From a virus, in the IMG/VR virus record IMGVR_UViG_3300009438_000030, positions 1-21,910 of that record: a stretch of 21,910 bases of DNA. One strand, 5' to 3'. Below the pieces are notes generated by a model, which did no database searches, was not told the DNA's origin, and saw nothing but the letters and a program-made list of their open reading frames with translations. A program made the translations under genes and the position numbers. Shown piece after piece: positions 2,519 to 18,093 of this stretch; the stretch's first letter is position 1, and the number at the start of each line of letters is the position of its first letter.

Positions 2519-3196
2519 TTAGTTTGCATTTAGCTCGAAACCTTCCACCACACCAAACGGAGACACAGGTTCACTTGTTGTAGGGATAGACATAGTGATA
2601 GCCTGAATAGTATCTTCATGGTCAATCATGGCCGAAACCCTCTCAAGTGTGTCTTCGTCTAAGCGGTCTACCGGCTTAAAGCAAAGTTTTGGTACTGCAC
2701 TATCCGCATCAAAATAAATCTTGGTGGTGATAGTAACTACAGGCGTGTCATGTTTAGCGAGTAACCGAGCATAGTTTTGCATACCCATATCTCCGCTATT
2801 AGCACTGCCAAATATAGACGTGGCAGGTATCTGTAACTGATACACCTCTTCGGGGTTATCCCGAAATACAACTGCTAACCGTTGTCCAAACCGGCAAGCC
2901 CTACCCCCATACTGGCCAGAACCTCTTATATTTTGAGGGCAGTCCATACAACGCATTGCTTGCCGTTGCTCTTGGGGTACATCTACTGAAGGTACTTGTG
3001 TGTCGGCAGACCAACACGTAGGTACCGCAACCCTATTGGGGTCGTACGCATCGCCATAGTAAGCGCGAGAAACTGGAGCGGCGTTTACTATAACCACATC
3101 CATATAACCTAAGTCTCTAGTAACTTCTTCACCATCAGCTATAACGTGAAACTTGCCACCACGTATGCTGATTCGGCGTAGTCCGTTGCTACTCAT
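2519..3196 (-). CDS. Conserved phage protein with four-Cys cluster, possible SSB relative
   Basis: 225 aa, function not established. Four cysteines (C61, C83, C86, C101) in a spaced C-x21-C-x2-C-x14-C pattern, with the core CMDCPQN, suggest a zinc or FeS site in the first half. The second half is strand-rich and ends SPFGVVEGFELNAN, almost the same peptide as residues 165-174 of the adjacent SSB. In both proteins it follows a hydrophobic 'I/V-Q-x-I' strand, so this protein may be a diverged SSB-fold relative or may share a binding partner. Its ATG overlaps the stop of the upstream helix-turn-helix gene (TGATG), implying coupled translation. A DNA-metabolism role is inferred only from position and the Cys cluster. 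Confidence 0.7.
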   Translation of the reverse strand: MSSNGLRRISIRGGKFHVIADGEEVTRDLGYMDVVIVNAAPVSRAYYGDAYDPNRVAVPTCWSADTQVPSVDVPQEQRQAMRCMDCPQNIRGSGQYGGRACRFGQRLAVVFRDNPEEVYQLQIPATSIFGSANSGDMGMQNYARLLAKHDTPVVTITTKIYFDADSAVPKLCFKPVDRLDEDTLERVSAMIDHEDTIQAITMSIPTTSEPVSPFGVVEGFELNAN

Positions 3197-3444
3197 CAGG
3201 CGTCTTCATCCAAGTCTAACTCTAACTGCTCGTACATCACGTCATCTTGGGGTGCTTCATTTACAACTGCCGTAGGCTTACCCAAAAGTTCGGCTTCTAA
3301 CTCCGGTAGCTTAAACCTGTAAGTAGAACCTACCTTTATATAGGTATCGCTCGGGATTTTATCGGTGCGTATCCACGCACGTACAGTAGAGATAGACACT
3401 GCAAAGTGCTTCGCTACGTTTTCAATTGGGACAAATGCCGCCAT
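3196..3444 (-). CDS. Small helix-turn-helix DNA-binding protein (excisionase/MerR-like HTH)
   Basis: 82 aa. Residues ~4-52 read as a compact winged HTH of the excisionase/MerR-like HTH_17 type: IENVAKHFAVSISTVRAWIR (helix-turn-helix), then a wing around YIKVGSTYRFKLPELEAEL. The C-terminus is acidic (LELDLDEDA). It may be a regulator or DNA-architecture protein acting on phage promoters; the target is not visible. The gene has a strong Shine-Dalgarno (AAGGAGG) and its ATG overlaps the preceding stop by one base (TAATG), so it belongs to the replication operon. It is one of three candidate regulators in this window for the palindromic operators at 11.9-17.8 kb. The HTH call is good; the role is inferred. 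Confidence 0.75.
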   Translation of the reverse strand: MAAFVPIENVAKHFAVSISTVRAWIRTDKIPSDTYIKVGSTYRFKLPELEAELLGKPTAVVNEAPQDDVMYEQLELDLDEDA

Positions 3445-11052: not shown

Positions 11053-11910
11053 TTATTTCACCTCTCTGTATTCTTCATGTGACGTAGTGAACGCGCCCAT
11101 GTAGTTAACCCACGTATTGAACTTGGCGCGGAACTTCTTAGGGTCACTTGTTAGGCTGACGTTAGTAGTTGGGTTTGTGTCTCTCCAGTACCTGTTACCC
11201 ATGCTAGCTGATAACTCACACAGGAACGCGTGTACCATAGTGGTACGTTGCTCGTGTTGATCGTCCATCAGCATGTCTCTAAACGTGTCACCCCTGACTG
11301 TATTAGCGCCCCACGTTGCATCGCGGTTTGAATCCCAGCCCATAGTGCCCTCAAGTATCGGGGTCATAGTCCACGCCCAGTGCAAGTACTCGTCGATAGC
11401 TTTCTTGTACGGCGCCTTGGCTTCTTTGTTAACACGTACTCGTGTGATAGGTACAGGGTGCGGGTCGCTCGTCAATGTCCATGCCCCAGTCTGTTTACTG
11501 GTGGTAAACACCACCGGCTTGGCAACATCCTTGGGTAAGTAGTAGCGGCTGCCGTCATAACGTATGTACTGCTTGCCGCTATCCACAATGAAGTCCATGC
11601 CCAGAGGCATACACCGCTCAAGGAACGAGTACCTGCCATTGTGTGCATAGTCACCCGTCTCGTTACGAAACCATACTGTGTCAGTGCCATCGGCATTGCG
11701 AGTCCAGACCACTGCGGCAGTTCCGGCATAGCGTTGATGCTCCCCGTAATCTGATAACACGTACTGGTGTGGGGACACCTTGATGATACATTCCCACTTA
11801 CGTCTGCGGTCACCCATAGGCACTATGTTAGTACCCCTGATTGGTTTGGTGTTGTTGTACAAATGTTCCACGTGCGTGAAACTGTCTAGCCCATAATTAT
11901 ACATAGCCAT
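11053..11910 (-). CDS. 285-aa hypothetical phage protein, first gene behind a palindromic leader
   Basis: Begins MAMYNYGLDSFTHVEHLYNN and has a strand-rich first half with aromatic and Arg clusters (YVLSDYGEHQRYAG, VWFRNETGDYAHNGRYSFLERC) and a more helical second half (AIDEYLHWAWTMTPILEG). No family motif recognised, and no signal peptide or membrane span. The ATG has CGGAG in the segment CGGAGCAATATT, preceded by a perfect 20-bp palindrome (11932-11951). The AAA+ and 303-aa genes have matching leaders, so it is probably controlled in parallel with them. Function unknown. Confidence 0.75.
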   Translation of the reverse strand: MAMYNYGLDSFTHVEHLYNNTKPIRGTNIVPMGDRRRKWECIIKVSPHQYVLSDYGEHQRYAGTAAVVWTRNADGTDTVWFRNETGDYAHNGRYSFLERCMPLGMDFIVDSGKQYIRYDGSRYYLPKDVAKPVVFTTSKQTGAWTLTSDPHPVPITRVRVNKEAKAPYKKAIDEYLHWAWTMTPILEGTMGWDSNRDATWGANTVRGDTFRDMLMDDQHEQRTTMVHAFLCELSASMGNRYWRDTNPTTNVSLTSDPKKFRAKFNTWVNYMGAFTTSHEEYREVK

Positions 11911-11931
11911 AATATTGCTCCGAGTTGTTTT

Positions 11932-11951
11932 GTTATAACACGTGTTATAAC
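11932..11951 (-). promoter_or_regulatory. Perfect 20-bp palindrome in leader of the 285-aa gene
   Basis: GTTATAACACGTGTTATAAC is identical to its reverse complement. On the minus strand it is preceded by AACTAAAA and followed by AAAACAACTCGGAGCAATA and the 285-aa start. The flanks match the leaders of the 356-aa and 303-aa genes, which carry a different palindrome at the same place. It could be a dimeric-regulator operator or an mRNA hairpin. Confidence 0.65.
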
Positions 11952-11961
11952 TTTTAGTTAG

Positions 11962-12081
11962 TTAGCATATCCCCCGCATAAAGCAGTCGGTGTACGCCAT
12001 TTCGTTTACTGTCATGTACATCAGCAGTACTACTACTCCTGCCAGTATGTATATGATGTCCCCTTTCTTATTGTTATCCAT
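11962..12081 (-). CDS. 39-aa single-pass membrane peptide
   Basis: ATG at 12081 with AGGGG 6 bases upstream, starting 3 bases after the stop of the 73-aa gene. The sequence is MDNNKKGDI followed by a hydrophobic helix IYILAGVVVLLMYMTV (~9-25) and a short tail ending CFMRGIC. The basic N-terminus suggests it stays cytoplasmic. No known family; a small phage membrane protein. Supported by ribosome-binding site, spacing and membrane-helix composition. Confidence 0.55.
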   Translation of the reverse strand: MDNNKKGDIIYILAGVVVLLMYMTVNEMAYTDCFMRGIC

Positions 12082-12084
12082 ACG

Positions 12085-12306
12085 TTACCCCTGTTGTATG
12101 CGTTGCCACGCACGTTGCACTGTACCCACGTCATTGCGATCATAGTCACTGTCCACTGGCGTATCTCTAACGTGTTCATAGTAGAACTCCAACGCTTCTT
12201 CGACAGTGTTGATCGCCTCTTGCCACTCCATACGCAGTTCATCTGCGGTTGATAGATGCGCCCTACCTACTTCATGCACCCTTCCGTACTTATTATCTTC
12301 ACTCAT
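12085..12306 (-). CDS. 73-aa acidic hypothetical protein
   Basis: ATG at 12306 with AGGAG 6 bases upstream and an ATGA overlap with the wing-helix gene; a further upstream in-frame ATG (12327) has no such site. Reads MSEDNKYGRVHEVGRAHL, then amphipathic helices (ADELRMEWQEAINTVEEALEFYYEHV) and a C-terminal VQRAWQRIQQG. Entirely helical and soluble. No family recognised; it may be a small partner of a neighbouring protein. Confidence 0.6.
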   Translation of the reverse strand: MSEDNKYGRVHEVGRAHLSTADELRMEWQEAINTVEEALEFYYEHVRDTPVDSDYDRNDVGTVQRAWQRIQQG

Positions 12307-12587
12307 ACCAATCTCCTGTTTAGCCATTCGCCTGATAACTTCTCAGTGGGCGTACTGAAAGAACTTTTTTGTCTAGGGGTAGTGTTGCTCCTAGGTCTGC
12401 TACCAAACCTACTATCACCATACATAGGGCGCAGATGTGAGTCATGCACCTCCAATGCTTTGTGTAGTCTGGTAGCCATTGCGTTATGCGGCACGCCCGA
12501 TACACTCGCGTACTCTCTCGCCGTATACATGTGTCCTGTTACTAAGTCAGGGTGTGAACCCATAAACTTTATAAGTCGTGCCGCCAT
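12303..12587 (-). CDS. 94-aa protein with winged-helix-like N-terminus
   Basis: The first ~55 residues resemble a winged HTH: a HPDLVTGHMYTAREYASVSG helix pair, then PHNAMATRLHKALEVH as the likely recognition helix, and HLRPM. The rest is basic and low complexity (RFGSRPRSNTTPRQKSSF). The ATG overlaps the VWA gene's stop by one base (TAATG) with GAGGG upstream, so it is made with the AAA+/VWA island. It is a candidate DNA-binding regulator, possibly of the palindromic sites. The HTH call is from pattern only. Confidence 0.6.
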   Translation of the reverse strand: MAARLIKFMGSHPDLVTGHMYTAREYASVSGVPHNAMATRLHKALEVHDSHLRPMYGDSRFGSRPRSNTTPRQKSSFSTPTEKLSGEWLNRRLV

Positions 12588-13801
12588 TATATATCCCTCG
12601 ATTTGATGTGTACTGCCTTACCCTCATCGGGTACTGCGCCCTTGTTATCCAGTATCGCCCAGAGTATAGGGCAAGTCCAGTCACCCCAGCCAGAGTACAA
12701 GTAGCCATCAGTAAGGACGATACACGCTTGGGGCTTGATACCCTCGTCGGCCATGTACTGCGTGACACAGTTGACATCGGTACCACCACCACCCATAGGC
12801 TTGGTAGACTTGACCAGATTGTCTAGCTCGTGCATGTCGTATACCTCGTCACCCACAACACTGCTACCCCAGTACAGTAGACGTAGCTTGTCAGGTTTGA
12901 CTGTGTCGCATACACCCTTGACCTCAGACAGGAACGCTGTCAACTCTCGTTGTCTGACAGAGCCTGACGTGTCAATGGCAATGACCAACTCACCCACCTG
13001 CTCACTGATACCGCTAGGCATGATGATACCCTGACTCATCAACCTGCGATTGGGTCGAGCGTATGTAGAGTAGTCGCTACCTGCACACGTATTCTGGATG
13101 AACTCACGTAGCACCTCGCGCCAGTCAACCTGTGGCTGTAGTAACTCGTCGAGATCGCGGTTGCCTGTACCCCCCATCTTACCTGCGGCCATGGCACCCT
13201 GACGTATAGCCTCGTCAATGTCACGCGCCAACTCACGCTTGTCCTCGTCGGATAGAGACTGCGCACCCTCCCAGTCATGCTCGTCAAGTCCTGCGGTGCC
13301 GTCTTCACTCTGTCCACCATCACCCTGTGAGTCTTGCGACTGCTCGTCCTGCTCCTTGCGTAGGATGTTGAACACCTGTGCGCTGTCCATACCACGGAAC
13401 CGTTCATCGACTAGCCCACCCTCGGGCAGTGTGGCGAACCCATCTTGCCTGTTGTCATCGACGATCTTGATGTTGATAACGTAGTCACACGCGCAGTTAG
13501 CTAGGTGTGGGTCAATGTCATACATCCACTTCCATATCTCAAGGTGACGGTGTAGCTTGTGTCCCTCATCCTCGTGCAGTACTAGCCCACGCAATTCGGC
13601 ATCGGTCAGTCCGTCAACGAATGCACGTCCGTACTTCACATCACGCCCATTGGTACAGGCTGTCGGTATATCATCCTCGATAGTTTTCTCACCGATCATC
13701 AACACACCGGCTAGTGCTGTGTATCTAGGATGCCCCATGATGGCGACGACTGCTTTGGACAGTCGCTCCTCTGCTGTAAGTTGTTTACCTATAGTTAACA
13801 T
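12587..13801 (-). CDS. VWA-domain protein with metallopeptidase-like N-terminal region (DUF2201-like)
   Basis: 404 aa. The N-terminal ~150 residues resemble the putative metallopeptidase region found with VWA domains in phages (DUF2201): LVLHEDEGHKLHRHL at 73-87, then CDYVINIKI (105-113). The expected HExxH reads H76-E77-D-E-G-H81, one residue too long. A disordered acidic Ser/Gln/Asp linker (~150-185) follows. The C-terminal VWA domain keeps the full metal-ion-dependent adhesion site: DTSGS (277-281), GGGTD (T341), LTDG (D365). VWA proteins paired with MoxR-type AAA+ ATPases form chaperone or metal-insertion machines, and the AAA+ gene lies one gene upstream. The ATG has GGGAG at 7 bases, inside a small hairpin. 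Confidence 0.85.
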   Translation of the reverse strand: MLTIGKQLTAEERLSKAVVAIMGHPRYTALAGVLMIGEKTIEDDIPTACTNGRDVKYGRAFVDGLTDAELRGLVLHEDEGHKLHRHLEIWKWMYDIDPHLANCACDYVINIKIVDDNRQDGFATLPEGGLVDERFRGMDSAQVFNILRKEQDEQSQDSQGDGGQSEDGTAGLDEHDWEGAQSLSDEDKRELARDIDEAIRQGAMAAGKMGGTGNRDLDELLQPQVDWREVLREFIQNTCAGSDYSTYARPNRRLMSQGIIMPSGISEQVGELVIAIDTSGSVRQRELTAFLSEVKGVCDTVKPDKLRLLYWGSSVVGDEVYDMHELDNLVKSTKPMGGGGTDVNCVTQYMADEGIKPQACIVLTDGYLYSGWGDWTCPILWAILDNKGAVPDEGKAVHIKSRDI

Positions 13802-13988
13802 GATTTACTCCCGTAAATACTCGGACTCTACGTCCACACATACTACACCTTGATACCCAGTCACCGGCTGGCTTGGTACACCGACAATACCTATTGCGAG
13901 TATCCTCCGCGAACTCGTACCTACCACACGTCTTAAACTTGGTAGGGTGTAGTCTTAGTTGTAACAATTCGCTACGCGTTATCTTCAT
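13785..13988 (-). CDS. 67-aa Cys-rich, zinc-ribbon-like basic protein
   Basis: MKITRSELLQLRLHPTKFKT is followed by C21, a C35-x-C37 pair and a CSMC pair (C48, C51), giving a plausible four-Cys zinc site C35/C37/C48/C51. The C-terminus is basic (GRRVRVF). The ATG overlaps the AAA+ stop (ATGA) and the end overlaps the VWA start by 17 bases, so it is co-translated between the two partner genes. Possibly an adaptor or nucleic-acid-binding protein; function unknown. Confidence 0.6.
   Translation of the reverse strand: MKITRSELLQLRLHPTKFKTCGRYEFAEDTRNRYCRCTKPAGDWVSRCSMCGRRVRVFTGVNHVNYR
13803..13818 (-). promoter_or_regulatory. Hairpin presenting the VWA gene Shine-Dalgarno in its loop
   Basis: On the minus strand ATTTAC and GTAAAT pair perfectly around the loop GGGA, which is the core of the ribosome-binding site of the 404-aa VWA gene. 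The stem is short and AT-rich, so any effect on translation would be modest. Confidence 0.35.
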
Positions 13989-15055
13989 ACCTTGTCACTT
14001 GCGAACATGTAGTTGTTCTGCATAGCCCACGTGGTGAACTCCTTACTCTGCATCACAACATCGCGGTGCGCATACGAGTTAGCACGTATGCCATTGGCGA
14101 ACAGACCTTGCGCCTCCTTGTCGAGACGTTGCATGTACGTCACCCACGCATCAACCCAGTCACGTTGCATCGCACCCATAGCACGGAACACTGTCATACA
14201 TACTGCTGATGCTGACTCGGGTACTTTGGCATTGAGCGGATCGTCCTTGATAGACTGTAGGCTCGGTAGTTGGTCGGCCAGCTTCACAAACGCCATCATG
14301 TCCATAGCGCCACGATCACCGATAGTACCCATAAGTAAAGCTGTTAGGGTGTGATCGTCATACTGATCGCGTAACTTGAGCACGTCACTCGCGGCCTCCA
14401 ATGATCTTGGGGTGATAAACGCGGCACGCGACTGCTTGGGGTGGAAGATGTACGGGTTGTCATCGGGGTTCTTCACGTCCTCGAAGCCTTGCAACACCTG
14501 TGGAAACTCGCGCACGAACCCGAGCACACTGTGATCGACACCGTTACTGATACCCCAGTCGATAAACTCGTCACTGGTAGACTTGCGTGCTGTGACCACT
14601 GTGATGCGATTGCGTGCGTGTGGTGGTAGCAGATCGCCCACACCCTCTGCGCCTAGGTTGGTCGTGGCGAATATGATACTGCCCTCGGGGAATCGGTTGC
14701 GTTCCAACATATCACGTAGTAACGCGTTCTTGACTGATGCATTAGCCTTACCGTACTCGTCGATCATTAGTATCACCGGCTTGTCGAGGTGCAACCCCAA
14801 CTCCTCATTGGGTAGGTATGTCACGTACCCCTGCTCGGTGTTGAGTGATGGTATGCTCAGATCACCCAAGTCCTTGGTCGTACAGTCGAAGTAGCATGGC
14901 GTGTGGGTAGGGAATCTATCTGCTAACGTCTTTAACAGTGATGACTTACCGTTACCCATGTGACCCTGTATGAGTATGGTGCGTTGGTGGCCAACAGTAG
15001 CGATAGCGTTGGCGATCTGGTCTAGCGATAATGCGTACATATTTTGAGTGTTCAT
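13985..15055 (-). CDS. MoxR/CobS-like AAA+ ATPase
   Basis: 356 aa. Walker A is GHMGNGKS (31-38), Walker B VILMIDE (94-100) followed by YGKAN, sensor 1 is ATTN (130-133), and there is an arginine-finger region HARNR (147-150). The order and spacing match MoxR/CobS-type AAA+ proteins that act as chaperones or metal-insertion motors. In cellular systems these pair with VWA proteins (MoxR-VWA, CobS-CobT, RavA-ViaA). Here the VWA gene is two genes downstream and a 303-aa partner candidate is upstream. The ATG is preceded by GGAG in the conserved segment GGAGCAATACCATT and by the 18-bp palindrome (15078-15095). The ATPase assignment is strong; the substrate is unknown. Confidence 0.9.
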   Translation of the reverse strand: MNTQNMYALSLDQIANAIATVGHQRTILIQGHMGNGKSSLLKTLADRFPTHTPCYFDCTTKDLGDLSIPSLNTEQGYVTYLPNEELGLHLDKPVILMIDEYGKANASVKNALLRDMLERNRFPEGSIIFATTNLGAEGVGDLLPPHARNRITVVTARKSTSDEFIDWGISNGVDHSVLGFVREFPQVLQGFEDVKNPDDNPYIFHPKQSRAAFITPRSLEAASDVLKLRDQYDDHTLTALLMGTIGDRGAMDMMAFVKLADQLPSLQSIKDDPLNAKVPESASAVCMTVFRAMGAMQRDWVDAWVTYMQRLDKEAQGLFANGIRANSYAHRDVVMQSKEFTTWAMQNNYMFASDKV

Positions 15056-15077
15056 AATGGTATTGCTCCAATTGTTT

Positions 15078-15095
15078 TGTATACATATGTATACA
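15078..15095 (-). promoter_or_regulatory. 18-bp palindrome (operator or leader hairpin) before the AAA+ gene
   Basis: TGTATACATATGTATACA, identical at 16230, 16770 and 17822. On the minus strand it is flanked by AACTAAA upstream and AAAACAATTGGAGCAATA downstream, the latter including the AAA+ ribosome-binding site. Confidence 0.7.
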
Positions 15096-15105
15096 TTTAG
15101 TTTAG

Positions 15106-15294
15106 TTACAGCGTTTCAACAATGCGGCCATCAACGGCCACGATCTTGTAATACGACACGCGGTGCGTACGTAGCGTGCGTAGGTTCTTGTAGTGCTTGG
15201 TGCGCTTGTAGTTGCGCACTCGTAACACCGTTTGACCGTCAAGGTTTCCCAGTATCTGACGGTCGTTTGAGTCATAGGCTTCAACGTAATACAT
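15106..15294 (-). CDS. 62-aa basic hypothetical protein
   Basis: Starts MYYVEAYDSNDRQILGNLDG at an ATG (15294) one base after the stop of the 303-aa gene, with TTGGAG as ribosome-binding site overlapping that gene's last codons. A longer frame runs back into the 303-aa gene but lacks such a site. The middle is very basic and Tyr-rich (VRNYKRTKHYKNLRTLRTHR) and the end is a strand (YYKIVAVDGRIVETL). The beta-rich, basic character suggests nucleic-acid or protein binding. I recall similar small proteins beside AAA+/VWA genes in other phages, but no function is known. Confidence 0.65.
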   Translation of the reverse strand: MYYVEAYDSNDRQILGNLDGQTVLRVRNYKRTKHYKNLRTLRTHRVSYYKIVAVDGRIVETL

Positions 15295-15295
15295 A

Positions 15296-16207
15296 TCACA
15301 ACTCCAATGATGGTAGTGACTTGATGACATCGTCCACTGCCTGTTTGGTTTCGGCACGGAAAGACTCGTTATTGCGTAGCCCATCGGGAGTGACCCCGCG
15401 TAGCGTATCGTCTAGCTTACGCGCCATCTCGGACATCTGGCTGTCACCTGCTACGTTACACACGTTAAGCAGTTCTACCATGTCGAGCACGTTGTCAACT
15501 AATGAATCGCGAAACACTTTCTTCTTGTCATCGCCACCATAGTCTAGCCGGTCGGACATATTAGACAGTGCTTTGTACGTACGTTGCCACACGTCACTCA
15601 TCGCGGAATCCAACTGCTTGCGGTAGTACTCGTTATAGTGCGACTCCAACACGTCACGCTGCTCGTTGCCCACGTCAACACGAAAGTCACCGGCCTCGGG
15701 TAGCGGAATATATGAGATGTTGAACGCGAACTTGCTACGTATCGACGCCTCGGTCGGGTAGTCATCGGCCCGAAACAAACTACCGATCCGTGCCTGTGCC
15801 CTGCTCACCTCCCACGTATAGTTGTTACAGAACGTATCGACCATGTTCTCGAACTCGTTTTGCAGCTCGGTCATCTGCTGGTGGTACTTGAAGTATTGCG
15901 CGGTCGGTAGCAGTCGCATACCCAGATCGCTCCATGGCATTGTCATGCTGTAGTGGATGTTGCGTGCGCTTGCCACAAATTTCTGTATGGCGGTCAACTC
16001 GTCGCAGTTACCCAGTAACTTCTTATTGACTGATGCCGTACCGTTATCGGCATAGTTCTGGCTAGTCACTGATGCGGATGCTGACTTGTCTTTCTTGAGC
16101 CCCGTCCAGCAACTGATCTTCAACTCGCCCAACATGGCACTCGACCCGATTGATGGTGCGCTTGCCTGTGGTGCTGTTGTTACTACCATTTGATTTAGAT
16201 TGTTCAT
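15296..16207 (-). CDS. 303-aa DUF3150-like protein, putative partner of the AAA+/VWA pair
   Basis: A disordered N-terminus (to ~25) is followed by LGELKISCWTGLKKDKSASA, a helical core with NIHYSMTMPWSDLGMRLLPTA (~83-103), a KYHQQMTELQNEFENMVDTF coiled-coil-like stretch, then FAFNISYIPLPEAGDFRVDV, and a helical C-terminus ending DDVIKSLPSLEL. This matches my recollection of proteins (DUF3150-like) encoded next to AAA+ and VWA genes in phages. It begins the island behind a consensus promoter (16312-16339) and the 18-bp palindrome (16230-16247). It is probably a structural or regulatory third component. The gene is certain; the family name is tentative. Confidence 0.78.
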   Translation of the reverse strand: MNNLNQMVVTTAPQASAPSIGSSAMLGELKISCWTGLKKDKSASASVTSQNYADNGTASVNKKLLGNCDELTAIQKFVASARNIHYSMTMPWSDLGMRLLPTAQYFKYHQQMTELQNEFENMVDTFCNNYTWEVSRAQARIGSLFRADDYPTEASIRSKFAFNISYIPLPEAGDFRVDVGNEQRDVLESHYNEYYRKQLDSAMSDVWQRTYKALSNMSDRLDYGGDDKKKVFRDSLVDNVLDMVELLNVCNVAGDSQMSEMARKLDDTLRGVTPDGLRNNESFRAETKQAVDDVIKSLPSLEL

Positions 16208-16229
16208 AACTGTATTGCTCCGATTGATT

Positions 16230-16247
16230 TGTATACATATGTATACA
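16230..16247 (-). promoter_or_regulatory. 18-bp palindrome in the leader of the 303-aa gene
   Basis: TGTATACATATGTATACA lies ~60 bases downstream of the predicted transcription start and just ahead of AAATCAATCGGAGCAATA and the start codon. The position inside the leader favours a roadblock operator or RNA hairpin over a classic promoter-occluding site. Confidence 0.7.
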
Positions 16248-16311: not shown

Positions 16312-16339
16312 ATTATACAGGAATGGCGGCTTATGTCAA
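16312..16339 (-). promoter_or_regulatory. Consensus sigma-70 promoter for the 303-aa/AAA+/VWA unit
   Basis: On the minus strand a perfect TTGACA (16334-16339) and perfect TATAAT (16312-16317) are separated by 16 bases. Transcription would start near 16305, giving a ~100-base leader before the 303-aa gene that contains the 18-bp palindrome. This is the only full-consensus host-type promoter noticed in the window. Confidence 0.75.
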
Positions 16340-16440: not shown

Positions 16441-16729
16441 GTTACTTTGTTACCTTTTTCGTGGAAATATGAGGGTATTATTTTAAGGTGAAAGGGGAGG
16501 TAACAAAGGCAGGATTTTTTGAACTCCGGATACTATTTTTGTAAAAGGTAACATTATAAATTATTTATTAAAAAGAGTATAAAAAAGGCCATTTTCCGCA
16601 TATGCCTGATCATGCATTGTCACGAAACAGCACGTTTAGATACTTTTTGTATTGTTACTTTTTGGCCTAAAAAAAGGTAACATTGCGGTAACATTACAAG
16701 AAAAAAAGTAACATTGTAAAAGTAACAAT
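16441..16729. repeat. GTAACATT iteron region, candidate replication origin
   Basis: The AT-rich non-coding stretch holds GTAACATT at 16548, 16677, 16688 and 16708, GTAACAAT at 16722, GTAACAAA at 16500, and inverted GTTAC copies at 16441, 16449 and 16654. Several are preceded by A-tracts (AAAAAGGTAACATT). The copies at 16654 and 16677 face each other as a near-perfect hairpin around GGCC. Iterons in both orientations within AT-rich DNA, next to the replication block, are typical of origins or of arrays for an initiator or repressor. No gene with a ribosome-binding site was seen in 16248-16951. Confidence 0.55.
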
Positions 16730-16899
16730 GCGACCCGCCACGCGAGAGCTATAACTGGTATCTATAAAATGTATACATATGTATACAAGCCACACTGTCC
16801 ACGCGCTAACGTGCCATGGTGTGCGACCCGCAGCGCGGCAGCTATAACTGGTATCAGCAACGTCACGCGAGGCGCAACGCGGAGGCTGGAACTGGTATC
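16729..16899 (+). repeat. Three degenerate direct repeats ending AACTGGTATC
   Basis: Copy 1 (16729-16762) and copy 2 (16822-16855) share TGCGACCCGC, a GCG-rich middle and AGCTATAACTGGTATC. Copy 3 (~16869-16899) is weaker: GCGCAACGCGGAGGCTGGAACTGGTATC. The spacing is unequal, and an 18-bp palindrome lies between copies 1 and 2. Function unknown; possible protein-binding or phage-promoter-like elements. Confidence 0.5.
16770..16787. promoter_or_regulatory. 18-bp palindrome, intergenic copy
   Basis: TGTATACATATGTATACA just right of the iteron array, preceded by TATAAAA. It is not in a leader with the conserved GGAGCAATA context, so here it more likely acts as a DNA site. Confidence 0.65.
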
Positions 16900-17103: not shown

Positions 17104-17697
17104 TTAGTGGTTGACTACGATCTGCTGGGCCTTAGCTAGCAGGTCAATCAGTTTTACTACATCGAACTCCGGCTCCTCAATTGCCTGCGCTCGCTTGGCC
17201 GCCTGTTGTAGTGACTCCAGTACCTTGGCCGCCGATCCCGCCGCCTTGGCTGGGCCGGTGGATTGTTGGGGTGCTCTACCGCGCTTGCCCGTGGCTGTGG
17301 ACTTACTGGCTTTATGCTCAGGGTCTTGGCGTAATCGCATGGCCTCTTTATCGGCCGAGACTTTCCTGTTTACGTCCGTCCTTAACTTATTTTTCTTGGC
17401 TATATCCTCTTTGCTAAGTGCTGTGTTGGGCGTCTCGTATAGCTTCTGTGCCCATGCTCCGAATCCTTTCCGCCGTGCCGCAAATAGCGCCTCCCTTAAT
17501 TCTGGCGTGGCCGTCGATCCCTCAGCCTTAACTGGCAAGAAATCAGTCCAAAGCATGCCGTCGCTAATCATTTGATCATATGCCGCCTGCGCTTTCTTGC
17601 GGGCGCTTTCCTCACTGCCAGTGACTTTGCTTAATAAATCAGCCGCCTTCGAAGTGAACCGCTCAGGGATTGCTTTTGCTTCATTTGTATTTGACAT
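17104..17697 (-). CDS. 197-aa hypothetical protein in its own regulated unit
   Basis: Soluble, helical and basic in the middle. Begins MSNTNEAKAIPERFTSKAAD; residues ~30-95 form a helical domain (AQAAYDQMISDGMLWTDFLP ... FGAWAQKLYETP); ~96-130 are highly charged (AKKNKLRTDVNRKVSADKEA); a Lys/Ala/Gly-rich low-complexity stretch (~130-160) is followed by a terminal helix. No family recognised. GC-richer codon use than its neighbours is apparent. It is transcribed alone with the 36-aa peptide, has the 18-bp palindrome ~125 bases upstream and a terminator downstream, the layout expected for an autoregulated phage regulator. That role is inference only. The ribosome-binding site is AAGG. Confidence 0.7.
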   Translation of the reverse strand: MSNTNEAKAIPERFTSKAADLLSKVTGSEESARKKAQAAYDQMISDGMLWTDFLPVKAEGSTATPELREALFAARRKGFGAWAQKLYETPNTALSKEDIAKKNKLRTDVNRKVSADKEAMRLRQDPEHKASKSTATGKRGRAPQQSTGPAKAAGSAAKVLESLQQAAKRAQAIEEPEFDVVKLIDLLAKAQQIVVNH

Positions 17698-18093
17698 AAC
17701 TTAATACCTTGTAAAATGCGCGGGCTTGTAATGGTGCCGCGTTAACCAACCAAACCAGTGTTGGCTTGATGGTTCACATATTAACAGGTTTAGGCGTGAT
17801 CGCAATAGATAGGTTACAAATTGTATACATATGTATACATTACTGGCGATCTGGTAGGTTTAATCACAGATGGCCAGAATCCGATACCTACCCCGCCCCC
17901 ATGACCCGCTATGTCAGGACGGAGTCCCGGCGCTCTATATATTACTAATTTCCACGAATAAATCGTTATTTTTTGAGTTCGGCACCCCTACCCCCTCTAT
18001 ATAGGAACACCCCCCACCTCTTTTTCCGACCCCTTGTAAAAAATTTTTTATACTGTACGGTGTACGTTCTAGTAGGTATTACGTGGATAGCGA
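17698..18093. promoter_or_regulatory. Divergent intergenic region between leftward and rightward transcription
   Basis: About 400 bp with no convincing gene. It contains the 18-bp palindrome (17822-17839), a possible minus-strand promoter for the 197-aa gene (TTGCGA, 16 bases, TAATAT, weak), and on the right an A6T6 palindrome (18037-18050) overlapping TATACT (18049-18054), a possible plus-strand -10 box. TGTACGG-TGTACGT follows at ~18055. Transcription diverges here, so promoters in both directions are expected. Confidence 0.5.
17822..17839. promoter_or_regulatory. 18-bp palindrome in the divergent region
   Basis: TGTATACATATGTATACA, fourth exact copy, between the 197-aa gene and the rightward genes. 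Well placed for an operator controlling either or both directions. Confidence 0.68.

Follow-up and report, generated by a model that had tools for sequence, protein, structure and literature searches.

Palindromes dispersed around an early phage operon look like docking sites of a previously undescribed virus-encoded DNA-binding protein

Why should genes that lie kilobases apart in a virus genome be preceded by the same kind of perfect palindrome, and what reads it? The question is raised by IMG/VR record IMGVR_UViG_3300009438_000030, a 21.9-kb stretch (21,910 nucleotides; here called the window) whose gene content includes a terminase, a DNA polymerase, and a set of AAA+, VWA, and DUF3150 genes. 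A preliminary description had noted one leader arrangement before three minus-strand genes, encoding the AAA+ ATPase and proteins of 285 and 303 amino acids (aa), and had proposed either an mRNA hairpin next to the ribosome-binding site or operators for two related dimeric regulators. Here we followed the palindromes by computation through the window and its relatives, covering the sites, their concerted switching, the mapping of their specificity to one gene, helix-site covariation, and promoter positions. The palindromes look like docking sites of a previously undescribed DNA-binding protein made by the virus itself. We put the probability at roughly 80% that they are operators of the phage's own dimeric regulator, the 197-aa protein c5, which would read each half-site with one helix and shut an early operon.

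The palindromes are real and lie far beyond chance. No perfect palindrome with arms of at least 8 was found in the window besides the five in Table 1; five with arms of at least 9 compare with a mean of 0.10 and a maximum of 2 in 300 dinucleotide shuffles. Three of them stand, exact, in the probable leaders described before and end ~20 to 35 nucleotides ahead of the start codons. The common arrangement at these three genes was also recovered: AACTAAANG has three exact matches, all in leaders (expected number, 0.70; three were reached in 6 of 100 shuffles), and the shared flank GGAGCAATA has three exact matches, in leaders only. Two further exact copies of TGTATACATATGTATACA had been overlooked, one preceding the 303-aa start by ~560 bp and the other the 197-aa start by ~125 bp, both away from a ribosome-binding site; this is not mainly a feature of three RNA leaders. 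The proposed link between distant genes holds and reaches also to the regulator's own gene; c5 adjoins the farthest site.

Table 1. Palindromes, genes, and predicted control elements of the window
Feature	Position	Strand	Setting	Remark
Palindrome TGTATACATATGTATACA	15078-15095		AAA+ gene leader	Exact; site in 70/78 relatives
Palindrome TGTATACATATGTATACA	16230-16247		303-aa (DUF3150) gene leader	Exact; begins 64 bp downstream of -10
Palindrome TGTATACATATGTATACA	16770-16787		Non-coding stretch upstream of early operon	Exact
Palindrome TGTATACATATGTATACA	17822-17839		Upstream of c5	Exact; 16 bp upstream of inferred -35
Odd-type palindrome GTTATAACACGTGTTATAAC	11932-11951		285-aa gene leader	Exact; single copy in window
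285-aa gene	11053..11910	-	Behind odd-type operator	No Pfam/PHROG match at E 0.01
DUF2201 metallopeptidase/VWA-like gene	12587..13801	-	Downstream in operon	
AAA+ ATPase gene	13985..15055	-		phrog_1297
303-aa DUF3150 gene	15296..16207	-	First large gene of target operon	PF11348, E 1.9e-6
Sigma70-type promoter TTGACA-16-TATAAT	16312..16339	-	Upstream of 303-aa gene	Perfect (12/12)
c5, 197 aa, all-helical	17104..17697	-		Proposed operator-reading regulator; AlphaFold model pLDDT 87
Predicted recognition helix, c5 codons 104-120	17338..17388	-		Residues 104, 108, 111, and 115 on one face
Inferred c5 promoter TTGCGA-16-TAATAT	17778..17805	-	Downstream of 17822 site	Weak (8/12)

An exact 18-mer scan of IMG/VR returned 27 stretches, 14 of them with at least two sites. 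Broader searches gave two sets of relatives. The first comprises 81 loci, namely, the window and the best 80 of 290 from an AAA+ search, and contains near-duplicates (L032 is almost the window itself). The second comes from two further scans that added 148 new loci, 107 of which overlap neither the first set nor each other, as judged by exact match of a central stretch. The first set resolves into 14 half-site types, 5 of them single-locus, such as GTTAGTG-NNN-CACTAAC, GTTAGGG, GTCTACA, TTAGGTA, CCTGAC, and TTCGGGCA; two of the 14 share the half-site GTTATAAC and differ in spacing alone. With types derived from these same data and assigned by majority count (the fragments L034, L035, and L037 were reassigned by hand to TTAGGTA on account of L036), at least two sites of a locus's own type are present in 77 of the 81 loci and at least three in 70, one mismatch being allowed. 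In the second set, a 6-mer dyad occurs at least three times in 101 of 107 loci, compared to 1 of 321 dinucleotide shuffles. Beyond these relatives, no AAA+ relative in a prophage or host was confirmed among 84,980 species (two peptide patterns were used, and none of the 47 matching stretches held up), and isolated phages gave no c5 match at E 0.01 and no DNA match.

The sites keep to certain genes. Counting from 220 bp upstream to 130 bp inside each start, since open reading frame (ORF) starts were called long, we found an own upstream site at all 46 c5 genes for which 180 bp or more of upstream sequence was available, near 58 of 62 DUF3150 starts, near 70 of 78 AAA+ starts, and near 18 of 30 starts in the 285-aa family. 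The counts are 26 of 64 for a 311-aa family, 22 of 57 for c4, and 19 of 80 for VWA; on the minus side, the small terminase has 5 of 44 and c18 has 5 of 12. None was found at terL (0/43), polA (0/44), c9 (0/41), or c12 (0/24).

Which gene changes when the palindrome changes? Phages may differ in palindrome and still share flanking genes that are up to 100% identical. The window and L036 differ in palindrome and share 100% of the large terminase, 99% of the small terminase, and 92% of the AAA+ protein, while their c5 proteins are 39% identical; for L008 and L038, also with different palindromes, other matched genes stand at 81 to 98% and c5 at 49 to 50%. Between the window and L033, the AAA+ protein is 98% and the DUF3150 protein 95% identical, compared to 53% for c5, and the c5 of L033 is 77% like that of L038, which carries the same palindrome. 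What had been called compensated change is in this respect not quite rightly worded: the flanks do stay, but from one phage to the next a complete site has been replaced by a different one. Among nine ortholog families of the first set, c5 is the only one in which no two proteins of different type reach 60% identity (0 of 863 pairs; maximum, 0.55), and the remaining eight contain different-type pairs at 92 to 100% (near-duplicates included). The specificity determinant maps to c5. Its C-terminal part is common to different types, which places specificity in the N-terminal ~130 residues. Type changes on gene trees, relative to the minimum, set c5 (13/12) only mildly apart from AAA+ (16/12), DUF3150 (16/12), c1 (15/11), small terminase (13/9), and terL (10/8). 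Because these natural experiments point to the c5 region, an HTH_17/MerR-like protein at 3196-3444 was set aside as the regulator.

How might c5 read its sites? The AlphaFold model contains a helix at residues 96 to 124. We compared 52 c5 representatives, using only pairs less than 50% identical (204 same-core and 1,104 different-core pairs), with core labels set by our own rule from the half-site strings and a permutation that corrects only partly for shared ancestry. Identity in the recognition segment (residues 110 to 120 of the window c5) was 0.449 in same-core and 0.239 in different-core pairs. The top 4 of 169 columns were residues 115, 111, 108, and 104 (familywise p, 0.0025 each), whose spacing is that of one helix face. 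The helix also changes in a clade whose c5 proteins are 67 to 78% like that of L076 and whose half-sites are GTTAGTC, GTTAGGC, GTTATAC, or GTAGTC: helices with GSRLGK or GSRLNK go with AGTC, GSRLNR or GSRLSR with AGGC, and GAKLVKV with TATAC. Elsewhere, GARRNDF is paired with AGTG and KDLRNAL with AGGG. A c5 match was found in 66 of the 107 second-set loci, and the site predicted from the nearest first-set c5 was correct in 12 of 23 cases at 60% identity or more and in 11 of 41 below it; two c5 proteins had no BLAST neighbor. Concerted switching, mapping to c5, and helix-site covariation together lend strong computational support to the earlier suggestion that the palindromes are operators of a dimeric regulator.

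What would such a regulator do at these places? The 331 distinct site contexts contain 44 promoter-like matches, compared to 10.7 expected from mononucleotide shuffling; 17 of the 44 are 12/12 matches, and in 38 the -10 ends 37 to 89 bp upstream of the site. Among 58 loci with enough upstream sequence, 35 have a promoter of at least 10/12 at 30 to 90 bp upstream of the site, 24 of these being 12/12. Where such a promoter is present, the -10 lies upstream of the operator, which favors a block of elongation over promoter occlusion. At c5 the inferred arrangement differs. In a loose scan without control, 22 of 39 distinct c5 leaders had, downstream of the site, a TTG-type -35 together with a -10-like hexamer, and where a TTG-type -35 was found, the upstream operator ends 16 to 48 bp before it; since the c5 site is upstream of the inferred -35, the control of c5 itself may differ in kind. 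We infer binding by a dimer, repression, a roadblock, and immunity. A c5 dimer would bind the palindrome, each half-site being read by one helix, with one operator upstream of c5 and others before and inside the early DUF3150/AAA+/VWA operon; bound c5 would most likely stop elongating RNA polymerase downstream of the consensus sigma70 promoter and so turn the early operon off. A superinfecting phage with the same operators would be silenced by the same act, and phages would escape one another through joint change of the c5 reading helix and the sites.

Other repeats are present, some of them near the early promoter. The sequence TGATACCAGTT occurs five times on the minus strand, at window positions 1060, 9831, 16753, 16846, and 16890 (one mismatched; 0.39 expected), and three of the five copies fall in the non-coding DNA that precedes the early promoter. 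By eye, repeated TGTTAC/GTAAC words are seen at window 16580-16720, between the 16770 site and that promoter. In L014 and L051, 2.7 to 3.1 kb upstream of AAA+, TATCAAAAAGTACTTTTTGATA forms a perfect palindrome of 22 bp that does not resemble the c5 sites.

Several findings weigh against the reading of c5 as an operator-binding repressor of the early operon. The c5 protein has no recognized DNA-binding domain and no Pfam or PDB relative. No bacterial helix-turn-helix (HTH) family in Pfam scored above chance level with 33 members, and a match to phrog_12501, "HTH DNA binding protein," is weak and limited to 5 of the 33 (best, 8e-4). Structure searches with two c5 models returned nothing at E 0.001 in PDB (both) or BFVD (one model), and the best VIA-align Z scores, 5.8 and 5.5, lie within the usual background for helical models, although one of these comparisons barely covered c5 outside residues 148 to 197. 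Same-core pairs have a small, significant excess of identity in the rest of c5 as well (0.258 versus 0.217), and the scoring columns include three outside the helix, residues 56, 55, and 79 (familywise p, 0.0025, 0.005, and 0.02). No c5 was found in 41 of the 107 second-set loci. All 11 mispredictions at 60% identity or more come from the clade around L076, where the helix also changes, and 97 collapsed c5 proteins yield 40 different-site pairs at or above 60%, all from this clade, at least one of them merely a difference of consensus strings; the rule that c5 proteins at least 60% identical share a site fails there. In the interval between c5 and the DUF3150 gene are small, unshared ORFs that find no match in phages of another type, and a second determinant may be among them. 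Eight of 78 AAA+ starts and 4 of 62 DUF3150 starts are without a site. The promoter upstream of the site was found in only 5 of 26 GTTAGTG-type loci, compared to 30 of 32 loci of other types, and the c5 upstream site precedes its inferred promoter, which fits activation or divergent-side control too. Finally, no integrase, resolvase, or ParA-type ATPase (PF00589, PF00239, and PF13614) was detected in 17 records, six of them 58 to 62 kb and none rated complete; with no lysogeny gene found, immunity is only a guess.

Could the palindromes act in other ways? They could be mRNA hairpins that control translation from beside the ribosome-binding site, with or without c5 bound to them, and the leader sites do end shortly before start codons, with arms able to form stems of 7 to 8 bp. 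DNA is nevertheless favored over RNA, because the spacing is near-fixed, G-U pairs are absent, and centers occur in both orientations. In a scan of 0 to 25 bp, the spacing is nearly constant per type at 2 to 5 bp and single-valued in 12 of 14 types; the exceptions are GTTAGTG, with spacings of 3 (149 sites), 4 (18), and 5 (1), and GTTAGGG, with 3 (23) and 4 (1). None of 22 single-mismatch sites, many of them from one ancestral site, keeps a G-U pair. The arms are conserved and the centers free, appearing as CCG 31 and CGG 16 times and as TCG 12 and CGA 11 times, with some uneven pairs (ACA 7, TGT 1). The window c5 site is 5' of the inferred c5 promoter, and RNA folding of five leaders, three from the window and two from relatives, gave modest z scores of -0.5 to -2.1 against shuffles. 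On these grounds the hairpin half of the preliminary description was dropped as the main explanation, and we consider it very improbable. Activation by c5 is unlikely, though less so. The c5 upstream operator, lying just before a TTG-type -35, is where an activator site could be, but the early promoters match the consensus fully or almost so, and an operator downstream of the -10 is an unlikely place for activation. Between these two in likelihood, and quite improbable, are sites serving genome maintenance, replication, or packaging in a ParB/parS-like or terminase-related role, with their closeness to genes being secondary. Dispersed palindromes resemble parS-type sites, c5 is near the small terminase gene, and the sites are concentrated in one region. 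On the other hand, the same 17 records, none rated complete, lack a detectable ParA-type ATPase, and the places that the sites occupy ahead of the DUF3150 and AAA+ starts are conserved and, for many types, close to consensus promoters.

Another intriguing question is the single odd-type site of the window, at the 285-aa gene. Its palindrome, GTTATAACACGTGTTATAAC, is the operator type of the L033 and L038 sites and is retained in phages of TGTATACA and TTAGGTA type. Most simply, this GTTATAAC site reflects an older or neighboring specificity that was left unswitched. Such a passive relic poorly explains why the site is conserved despite another c5, a point to be added to those against our reading. 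Its 48-nucleotide leader is 98 to 100% identical in five compared phages with three c5 types, whereas the first 180 nucleotides of the gene are 89 to 96% identical and the 100 bp upstream 53 to 65% (9 of 10 pairs). A second regulator, of phage or host, might read it, so that the window phage would run two live circuits; this conservation speaks for that view, which we regard as doubtful but the least unlikely of the alternatives. No second c5 copy as a reader of the odd site was found in the records searched: every record that matched the c5 profile (14 of 17 searched, none rated complete) has one c5. Furthermore, in L042, L046, and L054 this leader holds a site of the type that goes with the phage's own c5, and GTTATAAC is used at all sites found in L033 and L038. 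The "two related regulators" proposed earlier are therefore not borne out, with one c5 per record and a second palindrome that is the operator type of close relatives. An apparently unswitched site is also present in L090, which has a GTTAGTG-type site at its AAA+ leader (-30) beside its GTAGTCC set and a diverged c5-like protein in the place of c5.

How could several dispersed sites follow one regulator? At the AAA+ leader, the window, L033, L036, L038, and others have near-identical flanks around wholly different palindromes. Flanks of the DUF3150 and AAA+ leaders are more similar when both come from one phage (mean, 10.9) than when they come from different phages (6.0; 36 distinct phages, restricted permutation p = 0.0002), while the excess over relatives is positive in only 21 of 34 phages. 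Over 8.5 kb, L008 and L039 differ at 28 positions; three of these lie within the AAA+ leader, and each of the three matches L008's own DUF3150 leader, which we read as conversion between cassettes in one genome. This one clear case suggests that conversion inside a genome overwrites one leader cassette with another, and leader sites are probably rewritten partly in this way. A broader proposal, to which we give somewhat less than even odds, is that c5 regulators form a new family with a simple, evolvable one-helix code and serve as an immunity-like identity system in phages without recognized lysogeny genes. Identity would switch when the helix is replaced and a new operator cassette is then copied from leader to leader by conversion within the genome, and the window phage would be caught in mid-switch.

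The closest known kind of system is the stoperator system of Cluster A mycobacteriophages. In L5, Bxb1, and TipsytheTRex, one regulator acts on stoperators dispersed in short intergenic spaces, the site consensus differs between phages together with the repressor, and off-promoter sites block elongation; these phages have 20 to 30 asymmetric sites of 13 to 14 bp, a monomer with an N-terminal HTH, and a temperate life with integrase or parABS (PMC6550527, PMC9283540). The c5 system is similar in that a single phage regulator covaries with the site consensus and different in site symmetry and number. The c5 sites are inverted repeats of 16 to 20 bp (where each arm is itself palindromic, as for TGTATACA and GTTATAAC, direct repeats are indistinguishable from inverted ones), they number 4 to 11 in eight long loci, and in the 58.3-kb L033 record all six are around c5 and the early operon. 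The c5 protein is without a recognized domain, and the 17 records, none rated complete, yielded no integrase, resolvase, or ParA. Heteroimmunity of the lambda/434 CI type, in which related phages have swapped repressor and operator specificity (PMC6550527), resembles the exchange predicted for c5. However, no CI/Cro-like pair was recognized in the window families searched and no HTH in c5, and the c5 sites are spread over several leaders rather than forming two tripartite operators. Among the literature matches listed, no title describes this system, and nothing was returned for DUF3150 phages, Pag-Yong1, or MinM2.

Five named phage records were scanned for dyads (45 to 50 kb of each), and a dyad set was found in Synechococcus cyanophage MinM2 alone (OQ594354, 15100-65014; L124). 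HTVC027P, HTVC023P, 023Pt_psg01, and DSL-LC04 gave only A/T-rich recurrences of at most four copies and AAGTTT three times. Two other records, OL906435 and PP438419, have the same length as OQ594354. MinM2 has MoxR, DUF3150, and VWA genes, and it contains 14 exact GGTTCAG-N-CTGAACC dyads, or 18 with GGTTCA...TGAACC, in 49.9 kb; 10 of the 18 are 11 to 28 bp before a listed gene start. Unlike the window, it has no detectable c5 homolog, and gp92 and gp72 were rejected as distant c5 proteins (hhalign probability, 0.2 percent; E, 0.26 to 0.29). The putative regulator target in this cultured cyanophage is GGTTCAGNCTGAACC.

The divergence of phage immunity specificities is described as poorly understood (PMC6550527), and how a regulator and its many dispersed operators change specificity jointly is an open question for phage immunity. 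Dozens of related phages provide a natural series here, with the same genes, more than a dozen half-sites, and point-level changes in the helix, and they also offer an apparent intermediate and one clear leader overwritten by another of the same genome. An unannotated protein family can now be named as a probable DNA-binding regulator, and the series predicts which residues would read which bases. The c5 system may show how a whole gene-control circuit can change both lock and key, the reading helix and most of its dispersed sites together.

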